Shown here piece after piece: positions 21,137 to 62,733 of a stretch of 64,000 nt of DNA (positions are counted from its first letter, which is position 1; each line of letters opens with the position of its first letter). Under the pieces are notes generated by a model, which saw only the letters and a list, made by a program, of their open reading frames with translations, made no database searches and was not told the origin of the DNA. The position numbers and the translations under genes are program-made. This stretch comes from Tubulanus polymorphus (Eukaryota; Nemertea; Palaeonemertea; Tubulaniformes; Tubulanidae), in contig NC_134032.1 in NCBI RefSeq assembly GCF_964204645.1, positions 12,704,275-12,768,274 of the forward strand. The letters are read 5' to 3'.

Positions 21137-21277
<141 letters not shown>

Positions 21278-26204: not shown

Positions 26205-29200
26205 TCACTGACGCCCATCCACACCTGTCGTAGGCTTGGTGCGTGCGTACTTACTTGACCAATCGGGAAAAATTATTTGGTATTCCTGACAACGGTTTCC
26301 GGTGAAACCCTCCGGGCAGCTGAAATATTCAAGAGGAAAATCAATCTCGAAAGACGTGAGTATAATGTGTTTCTTTTACTTTTATATTCCTCCAATTTCA
26401 AGTTACTTTGAATATGTTTTTGATACCACGACTGTTCAGCTGCGCGGCCGTTGTGAATCGTTACGGCGTCAATAATAAAAAGATTTTTTCATTGTAAGGT
26501 TTCACTTTGCTTTAAGCTACTCCGCATAGCCGTCCCCAAGAGGGTACCGGTATGTGGGTGGGAACGACCACTTTTGGCCCCAGAGTGTTTTCAAATGAGG
26601 AAGAATGTATCATTTATACTTAATAAATTACGCGATTTGTCAAGTATAAGAAGAATTTAGATTTGAATGTATTTTTAGAACGGGAACACAGCTTTAACCT
26701 ATTAATCTATCAAACACGTACGTAAGAACGTAATAAGAGCCTTGGTTGTTTTACTATATTCGACCCTTGGACGCCCTTGCTCTATGACAAAACTTACTGG
26801 CAGCCGAGGACTCGAGCCGATCCTAACTGAATAGCGAAACATTTCCCTCCGTTCAGACAGGCAGTTTTGGGGATTTCTTCCGGAATGCATTCATCCCTGT
26901 AATTAGGCGGATGCGTCGTGACGTCATCACTAGTCGTGACGTCACCACCGCCACTCCCGTTGTCGTCGGTGGCAGACGGGTTTTTGTAACCGTCTATGAC
27001 GTTTTTAATCATCTCATTGTATTCTCGGTCGTTGGCAGTTTTATATTTCTCGTTCATCGTCGATTCTTCTACAGCCGCATTATCTTCGTCGTTTCTCGTA
27101 TTTGCCGAATCTAGAATTTCTTGTGTGATGGAAAAAGAATGAATTCAAAATCAACTAGATATTATGTATATAATTGTAATTCTGTATGAAGAAATTTGTA
27201 GTTTCGTGGGTTTTGAAAATTCAGTTCTACAAAATTCAAATATTCTCTATCGAAATCTCTTTTTTCTCTATTACAAAAATCCATTGAATAATGTGTCGAA
27301 AAACTTCACGTGAACTAAAATCAATGAGAGAGGATAAACTGTGTCCGCTTACGTCTGTCTACGCTGGCAGTTCGACTCAATTTGTCGTGTATGGATGTCA
27401 AATGTGTCGGTTTATTATAGAAATTAATAATGATTTTACTATATTGAGGAACAGCTGTGTTGCTGAATCAATCTATCGACCTAGAAATACTGATTTGAGT
27501 TGAATCTAAATGTCAGCTGCTAATTAAGATATTGACAATAAATGTGCGTCATCAGCTGATTAAATAAATCGAAAAAAACTAGCGTTGAAAAATAACTAGA
27601 TCGATTACAAAATGCATGGGATCCTGTCATTATTGGGGCTGATATCGTGAAATACAGTAGGCTCGGTCCCTTAGTACGGTAAAAAATTGGGACTGGAGAA
27701 ATTCTACCCCGAGTTGGTATCAAATAGTTAGTAAGCTTTTGTGCGAGTAGACTCTGTCTCTTACTGCGGTTAAATTGCGACTGGTGAAATTCTAGTCCGG
27801 GTTGGGGTCATATACTGGAGTAACAGTTTGTAAGAGTTTGTGAAATACAGTAGAATATATCAAGCTTTAATTGAAGATTTTGTTATTGTGTAATATATAT
27901 CTCCCCTATTGACAACCTTGGTGATATAATCCTCTTGACATCCTCACCGACAGGGATTCGAACCTGACGGTATCGAGATTGCCACGGTACGAAAGGTTCG
28001 TGCCGTGGCTGAGTGTAGCGATGCCACCAGGTTTGAATCCCTGCCGTGGGAGGATGTCCTCTTGGGTGCGCAAACAACTTTTAACTGACGACTTCAATTT
28101 GCATCATACATGATTTTCTATGTTAGATAAATGTAAAAAAGTGTGATTATCATCAAAACCGTATCTTTATTGGCAATAAAGTCTGATAAATGTGGTTAGG
28201 ATGTGATTAGGGGATAAAAGATATAATGTGTTCTTTTCTCGTTTGTAAAAAACTTACCAAATATTCTTTCATCGAAGGTCTGTCGCTAAAAACGGAAATA
28301 TTTGATTTTAAATCGGGAAAAACGGGTCACAAAGCGCTTGAGTCGCTTCCCCTGTGCACAGCTTCTGCCGTTACAAACGAACGAACCCTCTAGAATAAAA
28401 CATTCTACACATGAATAGGATAAAAACCACTATGTACAATTATGAGAATTTAAAATCGAGAATTTATTTCTAAAATGTAAAAAACACGACGTTTCGATCT
28501 CACACAAGAGATCATCGTCAGGTGTGAGATATTGACAGTTCTCGATTTTTAATTATTTTTATTTTACATAGGGGGTTTTTATCCTATTATCCGTTCACCA
28601 CGTTTGAGTGTGGTTATCGTGCTATTATAAGTTTTAAGTTTAAGTTTATTGAAATAGACCATCATGGTCCTTAATTTCATACAATAAATTTCTACGAATA
28701 CTGTACGTTCAGAACTATACATTACATTTCGGAAAATATAAAATATAATATGTCCATCTTACTCGAGTTGGTGTCAAATACCAGAGTGAGAGTTTGCGAA
28801 ATGCGCTAGACCCTGTCTCTTACTCGGTACAGATAAATTCCACCCCGAGTTGAGATCAAATCGAGTAGAAGTGCGAGAAGTCTCTTCTCAGGGTATAAGT
28901 TGAGACTGGTTAAATCCTACCCCGAGTTGGTGTCAGTTACCTAGTAAGGGTTTGTGAAATACATTGGCCCTGTCTCTTACTGCGGTCAAGTTTGTCCGAG
29001 TTGCTTTCAAATACTGAGTAAGAGTTTATGAAGTACAGTAGACTCTGAATCTTACTGTGGTAAACTTGAGAGCGCGGTAAAATTCTATCACGAGTTGGAG
29101 TAAAATACTGAGTAAGAGTTTAAGAAATACAGTAGACTCTGTCTCTTACTGCGGTCAAGTTTAGACTGGTAAAATTGCAACCCGAGTTGGTTTTGAATAG

Positions 29201-29508
29201 CGAGTAATAGTATGAGAAATACAGTAGACTCTGCATCTCTTACTTATAAAGGGTTAAGTTAAGAATGGTAAAATTCTTCAAATACTAGAGCATAGAATTA
29301 TAGCAGGGTGATTGAAGATCGTGTTTGATATAATTAGCAATAAGACACTTTTTTTCAATGAATACTGCTTTCAGTGCAGAGATTGTAATTCAGTAATGTA
29401 GTGTTTATCCGTACAAAACACACGTACCTTGTTAATTCCAGAATCGGGAACACATGTCACCAACAGGAAACATACCACGAGCACCGCAAACCGAAACAAA
29501 ATCCTCAT
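26205..29508 (-). CDS. Secreted EGF-like protein (growth-factor type)
   Basis: Likely a secreted ligand or extracellular protein of 178 residues. Four exons join in phase: 29428-29508, 28258-28285, 26798-27110 and 26205-26319 (stop TGA). Exon 1 starts MRILFRFAVLVVCFLLVTC, a clear signal peptide. Residues 37-107 are acidic and polar (repeated DD, VTTSDDVTT), without a domain I know. Residues 111-151 form one EGF domain with six cysteines: C111-x9-C121-x5-C127-x12-C140-x-C142-x8-C151, including CLNGGKC and PEGFTGNRC. The CLNGGKCF spacing is like neuregulin or Spitz-type EGFR ligands. No transmembrane segment follows, unlike most EGFR ligands. A strong donor (GGTCAA|GTAAGTAC, exon end 26255) inside exon 4 could splice to a membrane exon that I did not find. 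AATAAA lies 39 bases past the stop. Ligand function is inference. Confidence 0.78.
27931..28065. mobile_element. Foldback element with tRNA B-box-like arms
   Basis: Lies in intron 2 of the EGF-like gene. The left arm (CTTGACATCCTC...CAGGGATTCGAACCTG) is repeated inverted at the right (CAGGTTTGAATCCCTG...GAGGATGTCC). Both arms contain a pol III B-box-like GGTTCGAATCC. It is probably a foldback formed from two inverted tRNA-derived SINE pieces; A and B boxes are too close together for a functional tRNA. Confidence 0.6.
28414..28589. mobile_element. MITE with about 27-base terminal inverted repeats
   Basis: Lies in intron 1 of the EGF-like gene. The left end AATAGGATAAAAACCACTAT and the right end 'ataggggg...atcctatta' are inverted copies. 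The centre holds 'cacgacgtttcgatctcaca' and 'gatcatcgtcaggtgtgaga', a motif pair that resembles one at 37095-37145. Too short to be autonomous. Confidence 0.7.
28755..29285 (+). repeat. Minisatellite family B (about 92-base unit)
   Basis: Five to six degenerate tandem copies in intron 1 of the EGF-like gene. The unit contains GTCTCTTACTGCGGT, 'gactggtaaaattctacccc', 'gagttggtgtcaaatactga' and 'aagaaatacagtagactct'. A better conserved array of the same unit is in CAND1 intron 23 (60090-60560). Two divergent copies lie at 27640-27850. Confidence 0.85.
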
Positions 29509-48026: not shown

Positions 48027-51000
48027 ATGGCGAGTGTGTCGTATCATATCGCTAACCTACTGGAAAAGGTCAGTTTGATGTCAAAAAAGTCCAGAAAACA
48101 GAACCTTCTCATTTTCTCTATTTTGAATGAATTTGAAAAGTTGCTTGTCATCTATCTTTTTGGTTGAATGTAGGCCTAAGGTACGATACTGTACTGCAGT
48201 TTAGTCAGTATCCGGACTGCAGTTTGGTTAAATCAGTTTGTAGTTCAGTTAAAATAAGTGCAAACCCAACTGCACCCGCTGCGGTAGACCGGACTGCAGC
48301 TGTCATTGTCAGCTTCCTTAATCAGTATCTGGGTAGCAGTTTATTAGTTAGCTGATTGCAATTTGGTTTAGTCGATAATCGGATTGTAGTTCATTCAGTA
48401 ACCGGACTGCGGTCAATAACTGGACTAACTGTCAGTGGGGTTGGAAATGTAGCGACTGCAGCGTTGTAAGCCGTAGCAATAATTTACTCCATGACGTTTT
48501 TTTTCTTTGAATTCCACGTTAAATGATGAAATTGATTGAAGTGAATTCACCGCGGCATTATTAGAACCTGTCAAAAATAGGCCATTAGCCGCGGCAAGAA
48601 AAAAATTGCTTCCAAACATGCTGTAGCGTGACTGCAATAAAGACAAGTCAGTATCCGAACCACTGTTTAGTCAGTACCCGTTGGTTATGAATAAATTTGC
48701 TATTTCAGATGGGTTCGGCCGATAAAGATTTTCGTTTCATGGCAACGAACGACTTGATGGCCGAACTTCAGAAAGACTCGATCAAACTGGACGACGACAG
48801 CGAACGAAAGGTCGTGCGTACTTTACTGAAACTTCTCGAAGATAAAAACGGCGAAGTTCAGAATCTGGCCGTGAAATGGTGAGTGCACGGGAAAAATAGT
48901 TGTTTTAAAGATTTGAAATATAGATGACTTGTTACTAGATTTAACTGGAGACCATGAAAATCAGGGAATTTGAATTGTTGGTGTATTGTTGTTCTTGCTC
49001 ATGATGAGTGATACTAAGAACCTCTTGATAAGAAATAGACCCCTCTGAGGATATCTAATATAGTCTAGAAAATCAAGGAATTCTTATTCCTTTCTTGATT
49101 GAAAGTCAGGGAATTATAATTTTTGGTGTGTCGTTGGTCTTGTTCTCCCCCACTGAAGATTTTGATAAGTTTTTAATTCCCCAAGCTGTAACAACCCTGC
49201 TGTATTAATTCATGTCTTTCAGTCTCGGGCCACTGGTGAACAAAGTGAAGGAATTTCAAGTGGAAACTATCGTCGATACGCTGTGTACGAATATGTTATC
49301 GGAGAAAGAACAATTGAGGGATATTTCCAGCATCGGTAAGAAAGAGTTTAGACTTTTTCTGATTACCATTATTTGGTTGATAATGTCTATGCAGTACTGT
49401 TTAGCTGAAAACCCAGCTATCCCACCAGCCGCATCTTTCTACAGTGGATCTTCATTACAATGAACATTAGGAGACCAGAAAATATGTTTGTGTGTTTAAT
49501 TGAAAGTTTGTTATATCCAGTATGAAATTGTTAGAATTTTGACTCAATCTTGATGGAAGTATTGAGAAATTGAGTTAGGCCTATCATTAGCAACACCTCA
49601 TGAATCCTCGCTTGCCACATGTTGCCTAAGTCATGGTTTGTTTCGTTCATTTAGGATTGAAGACAGTGATCGGTGAATTGCCGCCCTCATCAACGGCGCT
49701 CGCTGCGAGTATTTGTAAAAAGATCACCGGTAGACTTACTAGCGCTATTCAAAAGGTAAAATATCTCAATTCAGCTCCCTTTCTCCGGTCTCTGACCCAC
49801 AATTCAGCTCCCTCCCATCTCTCTCCCTCTCTTCCATTCTCTACCGCCCCCATTACAACCAAAAAGGAATCACCTCAATCTCAAATAAAACTTTATGAAA
49901 TCTGACCCCTGATATTTCAAATCTATGTGTGTGTCTGTGTTTCAGGAGGATGTGTCGGTGCAGTTAGAAGCGTTGGATATTTTAGCCGATTTGCTCAGTC
50001 GCTACGGTGGATTATTAACGAGTTTTCATCAGGCGATTCAACAAGCTTTACTACCGCAACTCGCTAGCCCGAGATTAGCCGTCAGAAAACGCTCGATCAT
50101 CGCTCTAGGTACGTAAGTCTATTCCGGTGATCAACGTCGCAATCATCCGTATTATTGTCAACCTTGATAGTCGCCACTCGGTCTTTGGCCGATCAATTCA
50201 AAGTCATTCACTTCATGAACAGGTTGGCCACTTACCTGGAAATCAGGGATCATTCATTTATTACGTATGCATAAAATTTGAATTTTTCAACCCCCTCTAC
50301 ACGCAAAATCGGCTATTTTTCATATACATTAAGCATTACAGTAAGCAATTGCACTGACCCCTCCCCCCTCCCCTAATGCGTACGTAATAAATGAATGACC
50401 CCTAAGGTAATTTTGAGGCTATGTCAGGGGAAATATGTTGAGATTGCTAGTAACATCATGTGTATAATCAAACAGTTTCCGTCTATGTCTTACATATTTG
50501 ACTGCGTTAAATGATTGGATTCTTAGCTGATCAAGTCGGGGAAAACAATGTTCATGTCGGGGGGGGGGAAAGCTGGTCAAATAAAAATCGCCACCCTGAT
50601 TGAGAAGCCATGTTTTAGTCTTCACGCGAGTGTATCAAATAGGAGTTGCTCCGGAAATATTCAAATCACAGCGTTCAGACTCATCCGTTTCTCGAATGGT
50701 TGGCTCCGGGTAGATTTACTCCCTTTTTTCTAAGGATAGAGTTCGAATAAAACTGATACTGGGGAATTTTGTGTTTTTCAGGTTTCTTAGTAACGAGTTG
50801 TAGTAACAGTTTATTCATCGAACTGATCAGTTTTCTGTTGACTGAATTGTCGAAAAATTCAAACATTTCAACAACGCGAACTTATATACAGTGTATGGGA
50901 GCTATCAGGTAAAATATCATCAAAGGCATCACGACACCAAAAGCTCAAACCTCTCCATTGCAAACACCTCTCTCCACTGCATTTGATATCCATTGTAGAT

Positions 51001-54000
51001 ATGTTTTACTGTGTGTTAATTGTTTTTTTGTTTGTTTTGTTTTTCAGTCGTCAGGCGGGTCACCGTATCGGTGAACATCTCGAGCGCATCGTGCCGTTAG
51101 TGATTAAATTCTGTAAAATCGAAGACGACGAACTGAGAGAGTTTTGTATCCAGGCGTTTGAATCGTTTATACGCCGCTGTCCGAAAGAGATATCGCCGCA
51201 CGTTTCAGCTGTACGTATCAGAAACGGGAATAGAAACCAATTGTTAACACTTTCAGTGCTGACTAATTAACACCCTATAGTGCTGGAGATAATTTGAAAA
51301 TTCTGAAAAATTCCACCCATGTGTGTTGAATAACAGGAATACCACTATAGTGCGACTACACCGCGGCGCAGTGTAATGTTAGTTACTAATATTTCACTAC
51401 GTTTGACAGGTGCTGCCATTTTTCAAGAGAGATAATTACTAATTACATCAATACACCGCAGTGCGGTGTACTAGCAAAATCTATCTCTGATTTATATACC
51501 GCATTGCGGTGTAGACGCACTGAAAGCGTTAAGAGTTTTAGTATATTGATATAGAATCCACACGAATGCTAAGGAATGAAAGCCCTTGTATTATTAAGCC
51601 CTTAGTATGATCCCGTGGGATAAGCATATCTGAAATTTTGCTTGCTCCCTCAAAAATCAACTTGCCCTACACAGCCAGTCCTACTCGACGTGGCACAATC
51701 CTCCGTTGTGATAATGATAACCTACTTGCCCTAATGAAAATATACTTGTCCCAAGCAATCGGACCAGTGCTTACATGATGTTAAACATGTGAAATTTTTC
51801 CTTTGAGCTAATGATGTATTGCAGGCAACATTTCTGCTATCATAGGCCTAATCTAAAACTGAAGGTAACTATCAGGTTACAGCCAAAGCCTGAATGAAAT
51901 AAGATAGCTCAAAGGAATTGATTTATCATCATTAGTGTGCAGGGGTTCCATACATGTATATTATCATCATAAGATATGGATATTTTAGTGTTTCATCAAT
52001 GGTTTATAATCATTACCTGGTTAGTTTGATCATCTCGCCCTATAGATAATCGAACTGTGTGAAGAGTATTTGTGCTACGATCCGAATTATAATTACGACG
52101 AAGAGGAAGATGAGGATGCGATGGATGTGAATGATGAGGAGGAAGAGGGGTAAGTGTTTGTGAGGAGTAAGAGGGAAATCATCGATGTGTTTTACGTGGT
52201 TCCCACTGTACCGGAAAATCGGGAAAACTTAGGGAATTTTAAAATGATATTTCCCGGTTTTTAGATATTGCAGAATTCTGATTGATTTCCTCTGATGGCG
52301 GAAATATTTTTGAAAATCATTTTATACTTCGTGTAGCTTAGTTGTGGGATATCAGTTGCTTGCTGAACCGCGACTTCTGTCGCAATCTTTTATGAAAATA
52401 ACCTTTGTCAACTACAGGATGGCATCTGTTTCTAGTTGGAAAACAATCCATGAGGTCCTCGGGAAATACTTAGGAAATTTTGAATTAATCATGGTAATAT
52501 TTGTGTTTGTGGGGGAGGGGAGTGGAGGGGGTTTGTGTTTGGAGGGGAGTGGATGGGGTGTAGAGGGGAGTCACTGATCTATTGTTTATGTTTGTCTAGT
52601 GAGAGTGATGGGGAGAGGTGAGGGGAGTGCAGGGGGTGTGGAGGGGAGTCACTCACTGATCTGTTGTTTATGTTAGTCTAGTAGTGAAAGTGATGACGAG
52701 AGGTGAGGGGAGTAGAGGGGAGTCACTCACCGATCTGTTGTTTATGTTAGTCTAGTAGTGAAAGTGATGACGAGAGGTGAGGGGGTGTGGAGGGGAGTCA
52801 CTCACTGATCTGTTGTTTATGTTAGTCTAGTAGTGAAAGTGATGACGAGAGGTGAGGGGGTGTGGAGGGGAGTCACTCACTGATCTGTTGTTTATGTTAG
52901 TCTAGTAGTGAAAGTGATGACGAGAGGTGAGGGGGTGTGGAGGGGAGTCACTCACCGATCTGTTGTTTATGTTTGTCTAGTGAGAGTGATGATGAATACA
53001 GCGACGATGATGATATGAGTTGGAAAGTTCGTCGCGCGTCTGCGAAATGTCTCGACGCGATCATCGCCACGCGACACGAGATGCTCGTCGAATTCTACAA
53101 GATCATCTCTCCCACTCTTATCAGTCGATTTAAAGGTAAACTATTCTAAAATTGAAATTAGTTTCTGTCCAAATACTGAAGTTCTTATTTACTCTTGGAA
53201 CTGTTTAGAACAGTCTACTGGCCTGCAATTGAAAGAGATTTTAACATACAGTAAACCCCCGATATACCACCCTCCCATATACCGCCACCCCCCGCTTACT
53301 GCCAAATTTTCTCATTGTACATCTCTATACAAATACCTAGTAAAACACCCCCAATATGCCGCTATACTCTCGATACGGGATCTAGATTTCTCCAAAATTG
53401 TTCTGCACCGATGTGGGGGGTATATCGGGGGTTGACTGTGTCATAAATTTTTGCTGTCTGAATTATCTACATAAAGGGTCTTAAGATTCGAACATACTTA
53501 CTGTAAGTAAGTAATACAGACTTAGAAATTCTTTAACTGGGCCTCAACATTATATGTATATATTTTGTAGAGAGGGAGGAGAATGTAAAAGCCGATATAT
53601 TCCATGTTTATATAACGTTACTGAGGCAGACGAAACCGAGCGTACTCACTGAACCCGACGCTATGGAAGAGGACACCGGGTAAGTAGTACTGATTTCACT
53701 TAAAGATTATCATCCACCAAAAATGATCTTGAAATTCCAAATTTTCCTAAAGTGATATATGCTGTATCAAAACTCTTTGATCCTAGAGATGAAATATGAA
53801 ACCAAGGAACAAAATTTGCTACTTCTTTTTAAGTTCATTAATCATTTGATTAGTCTTGATTTTCTTTGACATTTTGATCAACTTCTTGAGTACATACCGT
53901 AACTAATTGAGGTCTTACCCTGAGTAAGTCTGAGATATCTGAGATATGGTCTGAACCCATGTTCTGCACCCGTTGCCAGCGAGTCAAGTTGAATCTGAGA

Positions 54001-57000
54001 AAAAGCTTCCATTTTGTGAAATTTCTTGAATTTTGATGTTGTTACCATATGTGTAGAGAGAAATAACACCCCTGAAGGGTCTGTTTCACGAATGAATTAT
54101 CTTTCTTACATTCTATCTATTTTTAGACCGGTGAGTCTGTTACAGTCACAGATACCGACGATCGTGAAAGCGTTGCATCGACAGTTGAGAGAGAAGAGTA
54201 TTAAAACTCGACAGGGCTGTTTTCTGTTGCTCACCGAGCTGGTGCAGGTGTTACCCGGGGCGCTCACCGATCACATCGGTATACTCATACCCGGCGTTCA
54301 ATTCTCACTAGGGTAAGTATGATCTCCATTTAGGACCTTATGTACAGTCAACCCCCGACACGCCGCCCACATCGGTGCAAAACGATTTTGGTGGTATAGA
54401 GAGTATGGCGGTATATCGGGGATGTTTTACTATGTATTTGTATAGAGATGTACATTGAGAAAACCTGGTGGTAGGCGGGGATGGTGGTATATCGGGGATT
54501 GACTGTACGTTGGTCTATGCTCCCTCGGGGGGGGAAAGGGTCAAGGCTTTTGTCTCTGACCTAGAACCTAGAGTGCTATGGTCTCTATGCTGCTGCAGAT
54601 GGTTCACCTAGAGCTGGTATTGCTGTGGTCTCTACGCTAATCCAGGAGGCTGACCTAGAACCTATAGTGCTGTGGTCTTTACCTACACTTCCCAGGGAGG
54701 TTCATCTAAACTGATAGCGCTGTAGTCTCTATGCTCCCCCAGTGAGTTCTCCAGGCACCTTAAATTTCTTCCATGGGTGGCTCTGAGAATATAAGAATCA
54801 CTAGTACATATTGTCGGTCAGCCTAATCGAGTAGGCAGAATTAGTTTCAGCTGTAGCTTTGAATATCCGTCACTGAAATAATGTTTGTATCTGTTTTCAG
54901 GGATAAGAATTCTAATATGAAAATCGACACATTAGCGTTTGTAAATTGTTTATTGACGACGCATGCACCGACAGTTTTTCATCCCCACATCGGAGCTCTT
55001 ATTACTGTAAGTATCAATTTTTGCTTCAGAAAGTATTTCTCGGTGGAAGTTCTTAAGACCCAGGTTCGGTTTGTTTCAATCATTGACATTGAACTCAAAT
55101 GATGTCCAAACACACCTGGTGGATACCCACATAGTATAAATGGAATTCTCTATTGCTATAGTAGTTTGTGTTCTACTGCACACTAGCAACAGTGGATCCT
55201 CACTTGCCACAAGTCGATTCCTCTTTTGTCACAGAAGTTGATGTCCTACTCGCTGAACACCAGCAAACCGGGAGGATCCTCCCTTGCCACAATAGCTGTT
55301 TACATATCTTAAATTCAGATTTATATATTTCAGCCGATAGTTCACGCGGTTAGCGACCCGTTTTATAAAATCACATCGGAAGCTTTGTTAGTTACGCAAC
55401 AACTCGTCAAAGTTATCCGACCGCTCGGTCAGTATCTCCTCCCTATTGTCAACTACTCGTAAAATTCGAAAATGAAAATTATTTATTCGTACTTTTTCAG
55501 ACGTCGAGGTGTCTTTCAATTTCGCTGTTTACGTGAATGAATTGTACGACTGCGCTCTGAACAGACTGCAGGCTTCAGATATCGACCAAGAGGTGAAAGA
55601 GCGCGCGATTTCATGCATGTACGTATCATCGAACCTCCTACCTCTTATTACACCTTATTAGAGAGAATAAGACATGTGTTTATTAATTCATACAACTATT
55701 TAATTGATGGTTAACTGCTCACCATCTGTTTCATACTGCGAGGGTCAATATTCTATTTACCCGCCTATAAATGCCAACCAATTCTTACCCTTAAGTGCTG
55801 GAGATATACTTCGGGTATTTCAGACAATTTCACCCCCCCCCCCCCCCCTCATTGCGTTTGGTATAACGGGCATTCCGTGTATCTTCACCACAGCGCGGTG
55901 TATCGTTAGTGACTCATGGCTGCGTTGCTTCGAGTCAGAAAATCTTGCCATCATCTTCATAATTTATATATGAGATTTAATTTTGTCTGCTCTCTTTTAC
56001 GTTCTAGGGGTCAGATAATTTCGAACGTCGGCGACACGTTGACGTCGGAGTTGACGAAGTGTTTGCCGATATTCCTCGAGCGTTTGAAAAACGAAATCAC
56101 GAGACTGACGACGGTTAAAGCTTTGACGATGATCGCGTCTTCGCCGCTGCAAATCAGTCTTCAAACAGTACTCGTACGTATTGTAAAAACATCTAGTTAT
56201 TAATAAATCAATACTTCAGTACGAACTCAGTGCCACGGTTAACTTAGAATTTTGTTCATGGCAGAACTGTGTCTGGTTTTATTAGCGATATCGATTGTTT
56301 GTTGAATTCGAAATTTCAGGGCGAAGGAGTACCGATTTTAGCTTCGTTTCTCAGGAAAAATCATCGAGCCCTGAAACTTTCAACCCTGACGTGTTTAGAC
56401 GTGCTGTTTATTAATTACGGTAAGCAGATGATGCAGGGTTTCTACGACTCCTTAAAAAGTCCTAAATGGAAAATTCTTTTAAAGTTGCATGAAACTCCTT
56501 TAATTTGAGCAAAATATCTGAAACTCCTTCAATTTTGAGAAATAGGAAATTAGAAATTTTTGTCTAGTTTGTAGTTGTAAAGTTAACTACACCTTAATCG
56601 ATACAGTTTGGATTTGTTTTTACCCTGATAGGTTGGTTGGTAACTGTATTAGAAACCTAGTTTGGGTAGAGTTAAGAATAAAAATGTACTTTTAAAACCA
56701 CTGAATTAATGGTTTACCGTAATGAACAGTTCCGACTTGGGAGGAGTCTACTGTAATGGATATATGAAAGCGATGCAAGCACTTCCTCAAAATTTGGAAT
56801 CAAAACTCATTTTCTTATTGAAAACTCATCGTATCCAGGAATGACTGATCTGTAGGGACCCTGTGATAGTGTTTTTCAAAGCTAGGGTTTATTACGGGCA
56901 TTGAATGAGTGCAGTGAATTGAAAGCGTTGAAAAACTTTATCATTGCTTTGAATCGGCGTGAATTTACACGGAAGGCCTTGAAAATACAAAGTACGAATT

Positions 57001-60000
57001 TGAATTGTAGGTGACGCGATGACGCAATCGATGGTAGCAGACGTAATGAAAGAAATTCCGTCGCTGATTTCCGACACTGATTTACACATTTCGCAGTTAA
57101 CTCTCACGCTGTTGACGTCGATTTGTAAAGGTCACAAATCTTGTACGACGAGCATTCAAACGTCGGTACTGCCGCACTTACTCACCCTCATCAAATCACC
57201 GCTTTTACAAGGTATGTACGTACGTTCTCTAGACCAACGATTCTTTTCGTAAATAGATTGAAATCGTTAGTTTCTTCAGGGGTAATTATACCGTATTTGA
57301 ATTCGTTGAGGTATAATATATCATTATGCAGCTTGAAACCATCCCTTCAGTTAGTTACGTAGAAGTGTGGACAATCAGTTTCTTTCTAAAGATAAGCTGA
57401 TAAAATGTCTAATATCTGCTGCTGTTTGTAGTTCATCTTCGATTAGAAACCTCTCAGAGAGAGTCCTTGTGAAGTGTAGATGATAAGTTTTTGAAAGCGT
57501 GCTGATAAAATGTCTAATATCTAATTTTCACTGAGAAATGTCTCTGGTGAAGTCCTGAACACATGTTAAGTGTGGACAATCTGTTTCTGAAAATGAGTTT
57601 ATGAAATGTCTAATGTCTGGTGTTTGTAGTTCATCTTCAATTAGAAACCTCTCAGATAAAGTCCTTGTGAAGCCTGGACGATCAAAAATAGGAAGAATAG
57701 TAATAGAGTATTGAAGTACTGAAGGGTGGGTCCTGCATTACGTACATTTGACCCTTTGTACCCACTCATGAACCATATAAACACCAATAGAAATTGTCGA
57801 CTCCAGTTACTCCATCACTTCACGACAAAATTGAAATTTCAGTTGATGATATTTTTCGTTTGATATTTACGTAGGTGGAGCGTTGAACGCGATGTTAGAA
57901 TTTTTCCAGGCTCTCGTCGCGACGGGAACGCAAAAATTGGGCTTCAAAGATCTTCTGCAGATGTTGTTATACCCGATTTATAGTCCGACGCAGGACAATA
58001 CAGCTCAACTTCATAAACAGGTTCGTAGAAGAGAACAGCGTTTCAGAATTTTTCATCAGGGGTACCGGTAACTAGGTTTTAACAGATCAGGGAGTTCTGG
58101 ATTTACTTTTCCATTTCCCTGCTGGGAAAATCAGGAAATTTTTACTCTTTCTTGAAAATCGGGGAAAAGTATGCAAATGTTAGGTGTTTTGTTGTTCTTG
58201 CCTGTAAATGAGTGCACCGTGCATCTGTTGAGTAAGATATAGCCCACGATGAAGATATCTGCTAATTTGATCGGGGAATTTTTGGTCTTTGGTCAGAGAA
58301 GTCTCGAAAAAAGATAGAAGAATTTGGATGTTTGGTGTTTTGTTGTTTTTGCTGGATGGTCCTTTATATTAGAGGGGGTTTGCGAGAACTTGACCATTTG
58401 TGGCATCTAAAACTAACTACTTGTATTTCTATATATTTCAGGCTTATCATTCAATAGCGAAATGTGTCGCCACGTTAACGGTCGTCTGTGAAAACGAGGC
58501 CTCGGCCGTAGTCACTCAATTCATCAATGATATCAAGGTAAATTTCTAAATCTTGCGCTTTAAACGCGTCAGCTCGCGTGAATTCCAATGAATCTATTGA
58601 ATCCGTGATTCCTTTCAGAACGCGAAATCTACCGATTCGATTCGATTGTTCGCTTTGCTCTGCGTCGGAGAAATAGGAAAATTCATGTGAGTATTTTATT
58701 TGTCGAGTAACAAATTTTAACAAATTTTAAGTATTTGCCCGGGTTTCAGTATGTATTCAGTTCAGTTTAGTCGAGTCAATTATCTTAACCCTATTGAACT
58801 GGGATGTAGCTTTTTAGCGAAACATACATAACCCAGCTCAAAACTTGTGATTTCAAACGCTTATGAGTTTAATTTTCGTTAACGAGAAAATAACCTAAAG
58901 CAATTTCAATTCGTTGAATGTGAAATTCGGGAGTTAGAAATTGAAATGAGTGAAATTCGTTTGTTATCGTTTTGTAGAGATTTAAGTCATCACAACGACC
59001 TTCAGAATGTGATATTAGAAGCGTTCAGTTCACCGAACGAAGATGTGAAATCTGCTGCATCATTTGCTTTAGGTACGTTAGCTAGCAGACGCAGTTTTCC
59101 TGAACTCATCCGGTGAAATCAATAAGTTTTATGAATATTTTTGTACTCGGTGTATGTTCTAGGAAATGTAAGCGTTGGTAACCTGCCGACGTTTTTACCG
59201 TTCGTTCTCAACGAAATCGAGAATCAACCGAAACGTCAATATTTATTGTTACATTCGTTAAAAGAGATAATTAGCTGTGAATCGTGCAACGCGAGCGGAA
59301 TCAGTGATTTACAACCTTACGTCGAGTCAGTTTGGTAAGTAGTTGCAGTTCCACAGAAGTGTGCGGTTAATTTTGACTGTGGATCCAGTTCCACAGTAGT
59401 GTTTGGTTTATTTTGACTGGATACAGTGCCACAGTTGTGTAGGTTTGATTTGACTGTGGATCCAGCTCCACAGTTGTGTTTGGTTCATTTTGACTGGATA
59501 CAGTGCCACAGTTGTATAGGTTTCATTTGACTGTGGAGGTGGATCCAGTTCCACAGTAATGTTTGGTTTATTTTGACTGGATACAGTGCCACAGTTGTGT
59601 AGATTTGATTTGACTGTGGATCCAGTTCCACAGTTGTGTGGGGTTTATTTTGACTGGATACAGTTGCACAATTGTGTCGGTTAGTTTGGTGGGTTTATAA
59701 TTTGACTGTGGATCCAGTTGTCAGTTGTGTGCTTATTTGACTCTCAAACCAGTTCCACAGTTCAGTGGACTTGATTTGACTCTGGATCCAATTCCACAGT
59801 TTGTGCTGAATTAAACCCCGTGGTTGTATGAACTTTCTAACAATTTGTTAATTGTATTTCGTCAGGAATTTGCTGTTGAGTCATTGTGAATGTCCGGAGG
59901 AAGGAACGCGTAACGTGGTCGCGGAATGCCTCGGTAAACTGACGCTCATCGATCCGGAGATGTTGCTGCCGAAATTGAAAAGTTATCTAAATTCGAATTC

Positions 60001-62733
60001 GGCGATGACTCGTAGTACGGTCGTTACAGCCGTGAAATTCACCATCTCCGACCAGGTCAGTATTGTATAAATAATAGTTTAGTCTTTTAGAATACAGGTA
60101 AACTGCGGTAAAGTTGAGATTGGTAAAATTCTACTCCGAGTTGGGATCAAATACTGAGTAAGAGTTGAGAAATACAGTAGACTCTTGTCTCTTACTGTGG
60201 TAAAGTTGAGATTGGTAAAATTCTACTCCGAGTTTGTGTCAAATAATGAGTAAGAGTTTGAGAAATACAGCAGACTCTGTCTCTTACTGTGGTTAAGTCG
60301 AGATTGGTAAAATTCTACCCCGAGTTGGTGTCAAATACTGAGTAAGAGTTTGAGAAATACAGCAGACTCTGTCTCTTACTGTGGTTAAGTCGAGATTGGT
60401 AAAATTCTACCCCGAGTTGGTGTCAAATACTGAGTAAGAGTTTGTGAAATACAGTAGACTCTTGTCTCTTACTCAGTTAACTTGAGACTGGTAGAATTCT
60501 AACCCGAGTTGGTGTCAAATACTGAGTTAGAGTTTGAGATTCTGTCTCTTATTGCCTATAGTTTAAGGTCTATATGATTCAGATACCGGTAATCTATAAG
60601 AATTGTTACTCTATTTTCAGCCACAACCGATCGACCCGTTGTTGAAAGGCAGTATGGGTGATTTCCTGGCGACGTTGCAGGATTCGGATTTGAACGTGCG
60701 TCGTGTGGCGTTGGTCGCGTTCAATTCGGCGGCTCATAACAAACCGTCGTTGATACGCGATTTACTGGAAGCCGTTTTACCTCATCTCTACCACGAAACA
60801 CAAATCAGAGTAAGTTTTGAAAATGATCCACGGTTCCCGGTTAACTTCGATTTTAGACAGTGATTTCTAGAGGAGTTAAAACTCAACTGCGTCGGAAATA
60901 ATTTTTAGCAATTCATTGTGGTTCTTATTGTTTCCTTTAAAATTTTTTAGCGAGAATTAATTCGTGAAGTTGAAATGGGTCCATTTAAACACACAGTCGA
61001 CGATGGTCTTGATATCAGAAAGGTAAGACGTTCTAAATGACTCGAGGTGGGCTTAGGGCAGAGTTTTAGGCCGAGATGGTGGGGTGAGGGTTAACATTTT
61101 AGATCGTCCTACATCACGCATATGTTCAGGACCTCATCCAAAACATTTTCATTTGAAAATGAACATTAGACATTTTATCAGCACACTTTCCAAACTTATT
61201 GTCCACACCTGACATGTGTTCAGTGCTTCACCTGAGACATTCTTAATGAAAAGTGAAATAAAAACACCAGAAATTAGACACTTTATAGTAATGGCGGGCG
61301 ACAATTTAGGTACATTTTCGTGAAATTTTAGTGCATATTACTGCTTTAAGAAGTATTGTGGACTTTCGTCATAGATCAATGTCGGGTGGAATTTTTCACC
61401 TGTCATTTTCAATAGGGTTCCTGGTCAGAATAGGGTTGGTTTGAACCCCCACTGGGTCCACCGCTGATGGGGCTATAATGCAGGGATATATCATATCCTG
61501 GCCTGATTTTCACCGTTTATTATCTGATATTTCAGGCTGCATTTGAATGTATGTACACGTTATTGGACGCGTGTCTCGATCGTATCGACATTTTCGAATT
61601 TCTGAACAACGTCGAGGAAGGTTTGAAAGATCATTACGACATAAAAATGTTGACGTATTTGATGTTGGTTCGTTTGGCTCATCTGTGTCCGTCTGCCGTT
61701 CTACAACGTAAGAATCGAATCGAATCATTTTTGGTTCCTTTGCAATTGGTTAATATATACGAGTCAATCGAGGCGTCAGTTGTGCACAGTAATGACTAGA
61801 TCATCTTAGTTCTATAGCTAATCAAAACTAATCTTTAGATCTAACAGTGTGGCTACTGACCTGGAAAAATCTGGAAAAACAGGGAGTTTAACAAATTTTT
61901 TGACCCAGTTCTGGAAACGGTTTTAACTTGGATCCCTCGGGCCAGTTTTATAGACCAATTTCAACTATAAACTAGTTTTATTGACGAATACTGGTAATAT
62001 AAAAGAAAAAGTGAAAGTCTGAATTTGTGAAATTACACAAAGTTTTATGATTTCTTGTTGTCAGGATTGGACCGTTTGGCCGAGCCGCTGAAATCGACGT
62101 GTACGGCTAAAGTGAAAGCGAATTCGGTAAAACAAGAATTCGAGAAACAAGACGAATTAAAACGCTCGGCGATGAGGGCTGTAGCTGCTCTGCTTACGAT
62201 TTCCGATGCAGGTGAGATTCATACATATTTTTTTTGAATCGATTGAATCGAAATTGTCGGTTCAGTTGTCATCAGATAATGCGTCACGGAGTTCAATAGA
62301 ACAGTACATATGTTTATAGCTTACGATGAATACGCTTTGGGTTAATTTCGGGTGTTTTAAAGGGAATGAAAGTTTCTTAAATTCACTTATTCTCGCGATT
62401 TGTTCCCGCGATGATCCGCCAAAATTGCGGAGGTCCTGATAGTGGCGGATAACTGGGAGTTGTCTCTCTATATTTAATTCCATTTACCAAATGTAAGTCG
62501 TCATTTCGACAGGTGGCCGGCACGATGACATTTCTCCGACCAAACAGAGTTCAGCTATATTAATGACATTTCACAAATTTTTTGTTTGTTTTCTTGTTGC
62601 AGAAAAAAGTCCGCCGATGAACGAATTTCTGACGCAGATCAAATCGAATCCGGAGTTGAGTTATATGTTCGAGAGTATTCAGAAGGATACGTCTGCTTCG
62701 AGCTCGGAGACGTCGCTAATGGATACGAGTTAA
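48027..62733 (+). CDS. CAND1: Cullin-associated NEDD8-dissociated protein 1
   Basis: HEAT-repeat solenoid that binds un-neddylated cullin-RING ligases and exchanges their substrate receptors. I read 28 coding exons, all GT-AG and in phase: 48027-48068, 48709-48878, 49223-49335, 49655-49755, 49946-50108, 50782-50908, 51048-51210, 52046-52149, 52981-53135, 53571-53679, 54127-54312, 54901-55006, 55334-55427, 55501-55618, 56008-56173, 56320-56419, 57011-57211, 57875-58020, 58442-58537, 58619-58686, 58978-59072, 59163-59334, 59866-60055, 60621-60809, 60951-61022, 61536-61707, 62065-62211, 62603-62733. Together they encode a full-length protein of roughly 1,230 residues. It is near-identical to vertebrate CAND1 in many blocks, such as [72 protein letters not shown] and [20 protein letters not shown]. 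The acidic loop is encoded by exons 8 and 9 ([18 protein letters not shown] then [14 protein letters not shown]). Introns carry many repeats, described separately. No AATAAA seen after the stop. Confidence 0.97.
48170..48440 (+). repeat. Degenerate minisatellite in CAND1 intron 1
   Basis: Repeated words of the type 'gtcagtatccggactgcagt' with variants at about 48200, 48225, 48290, 48320, 48370 and 48400, in units of roughly 25-60 bases. Confidence 0.55.
50246..50402. mobile_element. MITE with about 28-base terminal inverted repeats, CAND1 intron 5
   Basis: Left end GGGATCATTCATTTATTACG with 'tatgcat', right end 'taatgcgtacgtaataaatg' with AATGACCCC, inverted copies. About 157 bases with no coding capacity. 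Confidence 0.85.
51244..51532. mobile_element. piggyBac-type MITE, CAND1 intron 7
   Basis: Begins TTAACACTTTCAGTGC and ends GCACTGAAAGCGTTAA, 16-base inverted termini with one mismatch and TTAA at both outer ends, the hallmark of piggyBac target sites. Inside are three near-palindromes of the type CACCGCAGTGCGGTG. A related fragment with 'taagtgctggagatat' is near 55790 in intron 14. Confidence 0.75.
52500..52980 (+). repeat. 75-base tandem repeat spanning the CAND1 intron 8 / exon 9 border
   Basis: CTGTTG anchors at 52661, 52735, 52810, 52885 and 52960 give spacings of 74, 75, 75 and 75 bases; a diverged first copy has the equivalent at 52579. Each unit holds a G-rich stretch (GAGGGGGTGTGGAGGGGAGT), the acceptor region GTTTATGTTAGTCTAG and a copy of the first 18 bases of exon 9. 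The array ends exactly at the real acceptor (52979-52980). Copies are nearly identical, so expansion is recent. Confidence 0.95.
53248..53439. mobile_element. pogo/Tigger-like MITE, CAND1 intron 9
   Basis: Left end ACAGTAAACCCCCGATATAC, right end GTATATCGGGGGTTGACTGT, flanked by TA/TG. CAGTCAACCCCCGATATACC-type ends belong to pogo/Tigger relatives of Tc1-mariner. The 54344-54507 element is an inverted copy of the same family. Confidence 0.8.
54344..54507. mobile_element. pogo/Tigger-like MITE, CAND1 intron 11
   Basis: Begins ACAGTCAACCCCCGACACGC and ends TATCGGGGATTGACTGTA; the inside matches 53248-53439 in reverse complement (for example 'tttgtatagagatgtac'). Confidence 0.8.
55100..55300 (-). 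repeat. Minisatellite family C copies, CAND1 intron 12
   Basis: Inverted copies with 'ggatcctcacttgccacaag' at 55195 and 'tcctcccttgccacaatagc' at 55267, about 75 bases apart. Confidence 0.7.
57360..57690 (-). repeat. Minisatellite family D array, CAND1 intron 17
   Basis: Three inverted copies with 'ataaaatgtctaatatctgc', 'gtttgtagttcatcttcaat' and 'gaagtgtagatgataagttt'. Confidence 0.8.
59341..59815 (+). repeat. Minisatellite family A array, CAND1 intron 22
   Basis: About nine to ten tandem copies of a roughly 45-base unit: GTGGATCCAGTTCCACAGTT, 'gtgtgggtttgatttgact'. It fills most of intron 22 and is the longest family A array in the window. Confidence 0.9.
60090..60560 (+). repeat. Minisatellite family B array, CAND1 intron 23
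   Basis: Five copies with GTCTCTTACTG at 60187, 60279, 60371 and 60464, a period of 92-93 bases. The unit is the one seen at 28755-29285, 31 kb away. Confidence 0.92.
61110..61290 (+). repeat. Minisatellite family D copies, CAND1 intron 25
   Basis: Two copies with 'catatgttcaggacctcatc', 'ttttatcagcacactttcca' and 'gacatgtgttcagtgcttca'. Confidence 0.75.

Follow-up and report, generated by a model that had tools for sequence, protein, structure and literature searches.

A boundary-spanning minisatellite with micro-exon-like segments in intron 8 of the CAND1 gene of Tubulanus polymorphus

Introduction

Intron 8 of the CAND1 gene of Tubulanus polymorphus ends in a tandem array whose units each carry a copy of the junction between the intron and exon 9. 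This raises the question of whether the copied exon starts are exons themselves or are discarded with the intron. A preliminary description of this DNA had proposed five in-phase micro-exons, which might together build a graded acidic insert in a regulator of cullin ligases or else act as a splicing decoy. The answer matters in either case. If any copy is spliced in, variation in repeat number would feed into the protein sequence of a conserved gene by way of micro-exons; if none is, the array is a useful warning for gene predictors. We examined the gene model, the anatomy of the array, its splice sites and their spacing, and the chance of such an arrangement in the window, i.e., the whole stretch of 64,000 nucleotides, which is placed in a 16.7-Mb contig of a 267.8-Mb genome, and in its surroundings.

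Results

The CAND1 gene and intron 8

A tblastn search combined with a spliced model placed a complete CAND1 gene at 48027..62733 on the forward strand, with 28 coding exons and a product of 1231 amino acids. Twenty-four of its 27 introns were closed by a script and the other three by inspection; they range from 73 to 835 bases, the shortest of the 27 being 73. The product contains the Pfam domains TIP120 (E 2.2e-67) and TPR_CAND1 (E 1.3e-57), and in the model that skips the array residues 1-1230 align with the CAND1 chains of the PDB. Exon 8 (52046..52149, forward strand) encodes the first half of an acidic loop and ends at 52149 in phase 2 with the donor GGG/GTAAGT (the slash marks the exon-intron boundary). 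Intron 8 of the standard model covers 831 bases (52150..52980, forward strand), and exon 9 (52981..53135, forward strand) starts with TGAGAGTGATGATGAATAC, which the spliced model translates as ESDDEY, in agreement with the preliminary description.

A genome-wide search for a CAND1 retrocopy, as a possible record of splicing, matched exon 9 at one place, its own locus. Among the best candidates scored in a genome search for TIP120 there were five matches; the three above the cut-off all lie in CAND1, and the two below it lie outside the gene. In a single scan of viral contigs, none of 129 pattern matches encoded a CAND1 relative, and one search of a single literature library found no paper combining CAND1, alternative splicing and microexon. 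A codon-usage search for short introns over 284 kb was discarded, its calls being mostly false by eye and many of them lying antisense to coding ORFs; three introns of CAND1 are shorter than 100 bases, and only the one of 73 bases appeared among the 45 calls listed.

Anatomy of the array

The 3' end of intron 8 is a G-rich minisatellite built of units of about 75 bases, confirming the tandem 75-base repeat placed there by the preliminary description. TRF reports it at 52631..52981 (forward strand) with a period of 75, 4.7 copies and 96% matches, and successive units are spaced by 75, 74, 75 and 75 bases. Each unit consists of a G-rich spacer, a branch-site-like CTGAT or CCGAT, the acceptor TCTAG, a copy of the exon 9 start and GAGAG/GTGAGG, so that every copy holds both intron (acceptor) and exon 9 sequence, the latter over 11-15 bases. 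The unit had been described as the intron 8 acceptor plus the first 18 bases of exon 9. The acceptor is indeed copied, but the identity with exon 9 is shorter, covering 11 bases in copy 1 and 15 bases with two mismatches in copies 2-5. After its 11-base match, copy 1 continues with GGGAGAGGT, for which the parent has no counterpart at that place, and the sequence beyond GGGAGAGGT aligns to a G-rich tract 5' of the array (52500..52572, forward strand), which according to the alignments is partly the template of the spacers. The GT of the donor lies in this junction sequence, beyond the identity with exon 9, and the suggestion that a changed base of exon 9 created it has to be abandoned. Two features of intron gain are thus present in the sequence, a new donor GAG/GTGAGG and an inherited TCTAG acceptor.

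Near-identical tandem copies assemble poorly, and units 4 and 5 are identical, so an assembler could have inflated or collapsed the copy number. However, substitutions or indels distinguish copies 1, 2 and 3 from one another and from units 4 and 5. These differences indicate that most copies are probably real, and we regard an assembly artefact as the least probable of the explanations considered. The spacers might alternatively be the functional part of the array, as an intronic splicing element for exon 9 (a G-run enhancer or quadruplex) in which the acceptors are passengers. Two relaxed G4-like stretches, with loops of up to 12 bases, lie at 52511-52568 and 52610-52646, but neither conforms to a loop limit of 1-7, and the plus strand of the window contains no motif that does, leaving this explanation highly improbable.

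Candidate micro-exons and their reading frames

Five 18-base segments, each with AG before and GT after it, are located where the preliminary description had placed them, at 52600..52617, 52685..52702, 52759..52776, 52834..52851 and 52909..52926 (all on the forward strand). Copy 1 has a single AG at its acceptor and a length divisible by three. Copies 2-5 offer exons of 18, 21 and 26 bases, the 21-base forms starting at 52682, 52756, 52831 and 52906 and the 26-base forms at 52677, 52751, 52826 and 52901. Inserts of copy 1, of copy 2, of copy 2 in its 21-base form, of all five copies, of copies 1, 3 and 5, and of copy 1 with the four 21-base forms were translated; all of these 18- and 21-base inserts kept the phase and contained no stop, as had been claimed. 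The peptide had been given as ESDDE followed by R or S. Copies 2-5 do encode ESDDES, but TGAGAGTGATGGGGAGAG of copy 1 encodes ESDGES, and the R arises only when the donor is left unused, in which case a TGA follows immediately. Likewise, the spacers are G-rich as described, but they measure 67, 56, 57, 57 and 54 bases and not 54-57 throughout. The anatomy of the array, the phase of its segments, the duplication of the acceptor and the sequence identity are direct observations, and the segments could in principle serve as in-phase micro-exons. An extension of exon 9 back to the array acceptors was considered and rejected: acceptors 1, 4 and 5 were translated in this way and each meets a TGA, giving a stop after 334 residues when the donor is not used.

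The candidate donor

Paired with the 5' end of U1, GAG/GTGAGG reaches -10.2 kcal/mol, a stability shared by 5 of the 26 other CAND1 donors and by none of 663 decoy GTs inside CAND1 introns. On a matrix trained on the 26 other CAND1 introns, which is a small training set, the same site scores 3.28; one of the 26 real donors is as low, and 10.7% of the 663 decoys score at least as high. A generic matrix gives it 5.81, equal to or better than 22 of the 26. The gene-trained and generic scales disagree, and we lean on U1 pairing. GAG/GTGAGG is a good donor by base pairing, yet of a type that is rare in CAND1. The donors of this gene have C at +4 in 6 of 26 cases (e.g., GTACGT) and G at +6 in none of 26, a pattern that we take to differ from the human consensus. 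Each of copies 2-5 also contains TAT/GTTAGT, which scores 5.3 on the gene matrix, above the 3.28 of GAG/GTGAGG. In RNA folding the accessibility of the candidate donors is 0.23-0.33, compared with a median of 0.37 over 27 donors, and the five units show no unusual stability (z -0.05 to -1.17).

The normal junction of 52149 with 52981 itself re-creates a strong donor, AGG/GTGAGA, with a U1 stability of -9.0, the most stable of the six CAND1 junction GTs listed. Recursive splicing through this site was rejected because its use would drop one base. The exon junction complex is reported to repress donors re-created at or near exon junctions (PMC6224609).

Acceptors and the additional AG

Copy 1 and exon 9 have identical acceptors over the last 14 intron bases and the first two exon bases. 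With a score of 2.95 the site is weak: 2 of 26 real acceptors are as low, and 15.5% of 541 decoy AGs reach or exceed this value. As the exon 9 acceptor must nevertheless work, nothing in the sequence forbids the use of copy 1. Intron 8 has stronger-scoring AGs elsewhere, for example before 52274 (11.1), which indicates that the matrix alone fails to pick the true acceptor.

The TTTGTCTAG of copy 1 and exon 9 is replaced by TTAGTCTAGTAG in copies 2-5. This T>A change adds a third AG (TTAG), absent from copy 1 and exon 9, at 8 bases before the start of the 18-base form. Its score of 6.35 is the highest among the AGs of the units that were tested, the others reaching 1.68-2.95; 6 of the 26 real CAND1 acceptors are as low as 6.35, and 2 of 26 are as low as the in-frame acceptors of the array. 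Used as an acceptor, the third AG would produce a 26-base exon, a frameshift and a stop after 348 residues (translated for copy 2). At all 27 CAND1 acceptors of the model, the 15 bases upstream are free of any other AG, the nearest being at -17, whereas in copies 2-5 two more AGs lie within 10 bases of the acceptor. Of 49 human NF1 variants interrupting the AG-free zone, 24 led to exon skipping (PMC7317903). Closely spaced AGs (less than 12 bases apart) are given as an exception, where the base before the AG plays a part, and an AG that lies no more than 12-15 bases from the branch point can be passed over (PMC1431707), so that by this account the in-frame AGs of copies 2-5 would still be usable in principle.

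These sites could also make the array a poison or decoy, capturing the spliceosome and destroying some CAND1 transcripts through 26-base exons or an extended exon 9, with repeat number setting the output. That the first AG of copies 2-5 scores best is consistent with such a role, as are the premature stops on both routes (after 348 residues for the 26-base exon of copy 2, after 334 for acceptors 1, 4 and 5 without the donor) and the weakness of the exon 9 acceptor, with which upstream copies could therefore compete. However, selection would probably act against losing a cullin exchange factor in an unregulated way, and there is no sign of regulation; the 26-base exon requires the same short-exon recognition as the other forms, and the folding of the units is unremarkable. 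We therefore consider a poison or decoy function quite unlikely.

Spacer geometry

The best branch-site match lies 42 bases from the donor in spacer 1 and 31-32 bases from it in the other four; taking the nearer TTTAT as a possible branch site would add about 11 bases. Serial inclusion would require introns of 54-67 bases, compared with 73 for the shortest CAND1 intron. In a mammalian in vitro test with E1A, a distance of 50 bases permitted early spliceosome assembly and 35 abolished it, and the mutually exclusive exons of alpha-tropomyosin are cited as affected by the donor-branch distance (PMC6692369). Judged by this mammalian in-vitro result, 31-32 bases are too short, and serial inclusion of all copies, or a graded insert of one to five, appears unlikely. 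The graded acidic insert of the preliminary description is thus unsupported, given the frameshifting extra AG, the short spacers and a coding constraint that, with few changes, is not measurable. By arithmetic, single copies 1, 2, 3 and 4 spliced to exon 9 would leave introns of 363, 278, 204 and 129 bases, respectively.

Inclusion of one copy at a time is a different proposal. The array could be a nascent micro-exon cassette, in which copy 1, or a single one among copies 2-4, is included in some tissues. It would add six or seven acidic residues to the acidic loop of CAND1, with an SDDE site that we take to be a CK2-like motif, and since the short spacers would make neighbours mutually exclusive, the copies would be alternatives and not a sum. 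The strong U1 donor, the in-phase and stop-free 18- and 21-base forms and the identity of the copy 1 acceptor with that of exon 9 speak for such a cassette, and the introns from copies 1-4 to exon 9 (129-363 bases) lie within the CAND1 range of 73-835. The 31-32 bases from donor to branch site, below the 35 that abolished assembly on E1A (PMC6692369), fit the exclusion of neighbours. However, the extra AG of copies 2-5 makes skipping or a frameshifting 26-base exon more likely, the acceptors of the in-frame forms have weak scores (1.68-2.95), and constraint between copies is not measurable, so that we consider the cassette unlikely. A more elaborate version, in which the 75-base spacing makes neighbouring copies sterically incompatible, would be a ladder of mutually exclusive micro-exons. 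One of the five near-identical acidic hexapeptides, or two non-adjacent ones, would be inserted into the acidic loop, and repeat-number polymorphism would tune splicing and cullin-ligase exchange; we hold this to be very unlikely.

Chance, origin and selection

Five independent coincidences were rejected as an account of the array, the copies representing one event that was amplified. In 4,000 random sequences at the composition of the G-rich tract, a GT as stable with U1 as the candidate donor occurred within 55 bases in 17.6% (6.3% in phase); such a GT occurred in 1.7% at that of the pre-array part of intron 8 (0.4% in phase) and in 0.8% at that of the other CAND1 introns (0.3% in phase), the in-phase share being counted irrespective of stops. 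We also simulated 12,100 simple two-breakpoint duplications on intron 8. On the gene matrix, 3,551 had a donor of at least the observed score within 60 bases, and 118 of the 12,100 (1.0%) were in phase and stop-free; on the generic matrix, none gave a donor this strong. This rarity suggests that the junction needed filler or mutation. In boundary duplications simulated for 23 other CAND1 introns, an in-phase, stop-free donor of the observed strength arose in a mean of 7.2% by the gene matrix, compared with 0.0% by the generic matrix.

In 284 kb we found 26 minisatellites (period at least 30, at least 2.5 copies), four of them in CAND1 introns and 13 in a single block of satellite DNA. When the 26 were considered on both strands, 14 of the 52 strand-arrays had an acceptor-donor pair at least as strong on the gene matrix as that of intron 8, and in three, the CAND1 array included, the length was divisible by three. 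By the generic scale an equally strong donor was present in 1 of 52, the intron 8 array, which is locally the best of its kind but stays within what G-rich composition allows.

Other repeats were noted in the region. The further minisatellites in CAND1 introns, at 54559-54682, 59372-59682 and 60102-60539, have units of 47, 77 and 92 bases, and the 92-base unit resembles by eye a 94-base unit at 28996-29244. An uninterrupted (AT) run of 68.5 copies occupies 21140-21276. In a block of about 32 kb at approximately C8:12859949-12891765 (loci L018-L021), the unit lengths of the 13 tandem arrays are 33, 41, 59, 118, 304-306 and 476 bases. TRF found no array in locus L012.

Copies 2-5 are identical across the bases of the 18- and 21-base candidate exons. 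By our own count there are about five changes among these copies, none in the 18 exon bases compared with about 1.2 expected (P(none) ~0.25). Copy 1 differs from copies 2-5 in one synonymous and one amino-acid-changing codon. Over the ESDDE codons, copies 2-5 differ from exon 9 by three synonymous changes only, as would be expected from constraint on exon 9 by itself. With few changes and low power, no coding constraint on the copies was measurable either way.

Discussion

The array is probably a minisatellite that spans a splice boundary and carries micro-exon-like pieces as bystanders, mostly removed with intron 8. With the array skipped, the product is a complete CAND1 whose alignment to the PDB chains extends along its length, exon 9 had a single match in the genome, minisatellites are common in the 284 kb, and the donor is ordinary on the gene matrix. 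Against this stand the strong U1 pairing, the identity of the copy 1 acceptor with that of exon 9 and the finding that 0 of 12,100 simulated duplications gave such a donor on the generic scale. The purely synonymous difference of copies 2-5 from exon 9 over ESDDE points the same way, although constraint on exon 9 would account for it.

The order of events and the splicing outcome that we infer are as follows. One tandem duplication would have copied the 3' end of intron 8 (G-rich tract, CTGAT and TCTAG) together with at least 11 bases of exon 9, and its join with the G-rich tract may have produced the donor-like GAGAG/GTGAGG. Slippage or unequal exchange would later have amplified a variant unit, with a TAG insertion, the T>A change that adds the third AG and a CACT duplication, to a total of five copies. 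In most transcripts exon 8 would be joined straight to exon 9 and the array lost along with the intron. Since the loop is acidic and variable, it would tolerate the rare inclusion of copy 1 or of another single copy. The array thus offers a snapshot of how duplication of a splice junction can give an acceptor, an exon stub and a donor at once, and of how a minisatellite can multiply such elements.

A boundary-crossing duplication amplified as a minisatellite belongs to a class that is already published, with precedents in which boundary duplications create new splice sites (PMC4974935; PMC2812944). In the potato RdRp gene (PMC4974935), as in CAND1, the duplicated segment runs from the 3' part of an intron into the beginning of the following exon; the copy kept the branch site, pyrimidine tract and acceptor of its source, and a cryptic donor within the small piece of exon became active. 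The potato case is a single duplication, supported by 106 RNA-seq reads and placed on a phylogeny, whereas the CAND1 array has five minisatellite units and a donor from junction sequence, as seen in genomic DNA. In human genes within segmental duplications (PMC2812944), minisatellites on exon-intron boundaries likewise alter gene structure and can form novel introns; those cases have paralog comparison and transcript support, in contrast to one gene read here from its DNA.

The human CBS 31-bp VNTR, c.1444_1467+7(16_21) (PMC2630376), also runs, by its name, from coding sequence into an intron, with 16-21 units between people, and each of its units could presumably offer a splice site. It lies on the donor side and has a 31-bp unit, whereas the CAND1 array lies on the acceptor side and has an added donor. 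The schistosome micro-exon genes (MEGs; PMC4671649) share with the array a series of short exons, 26 of 33 in the new MEGs being divisible by three, a length that permits frame-safe alternative splicing there. The MEGs are transcribed and the central coding part consists mostly of micro-exons, whereas in CAND1 the series lies in an intron of a conserved gene and its members are candidate exons only.
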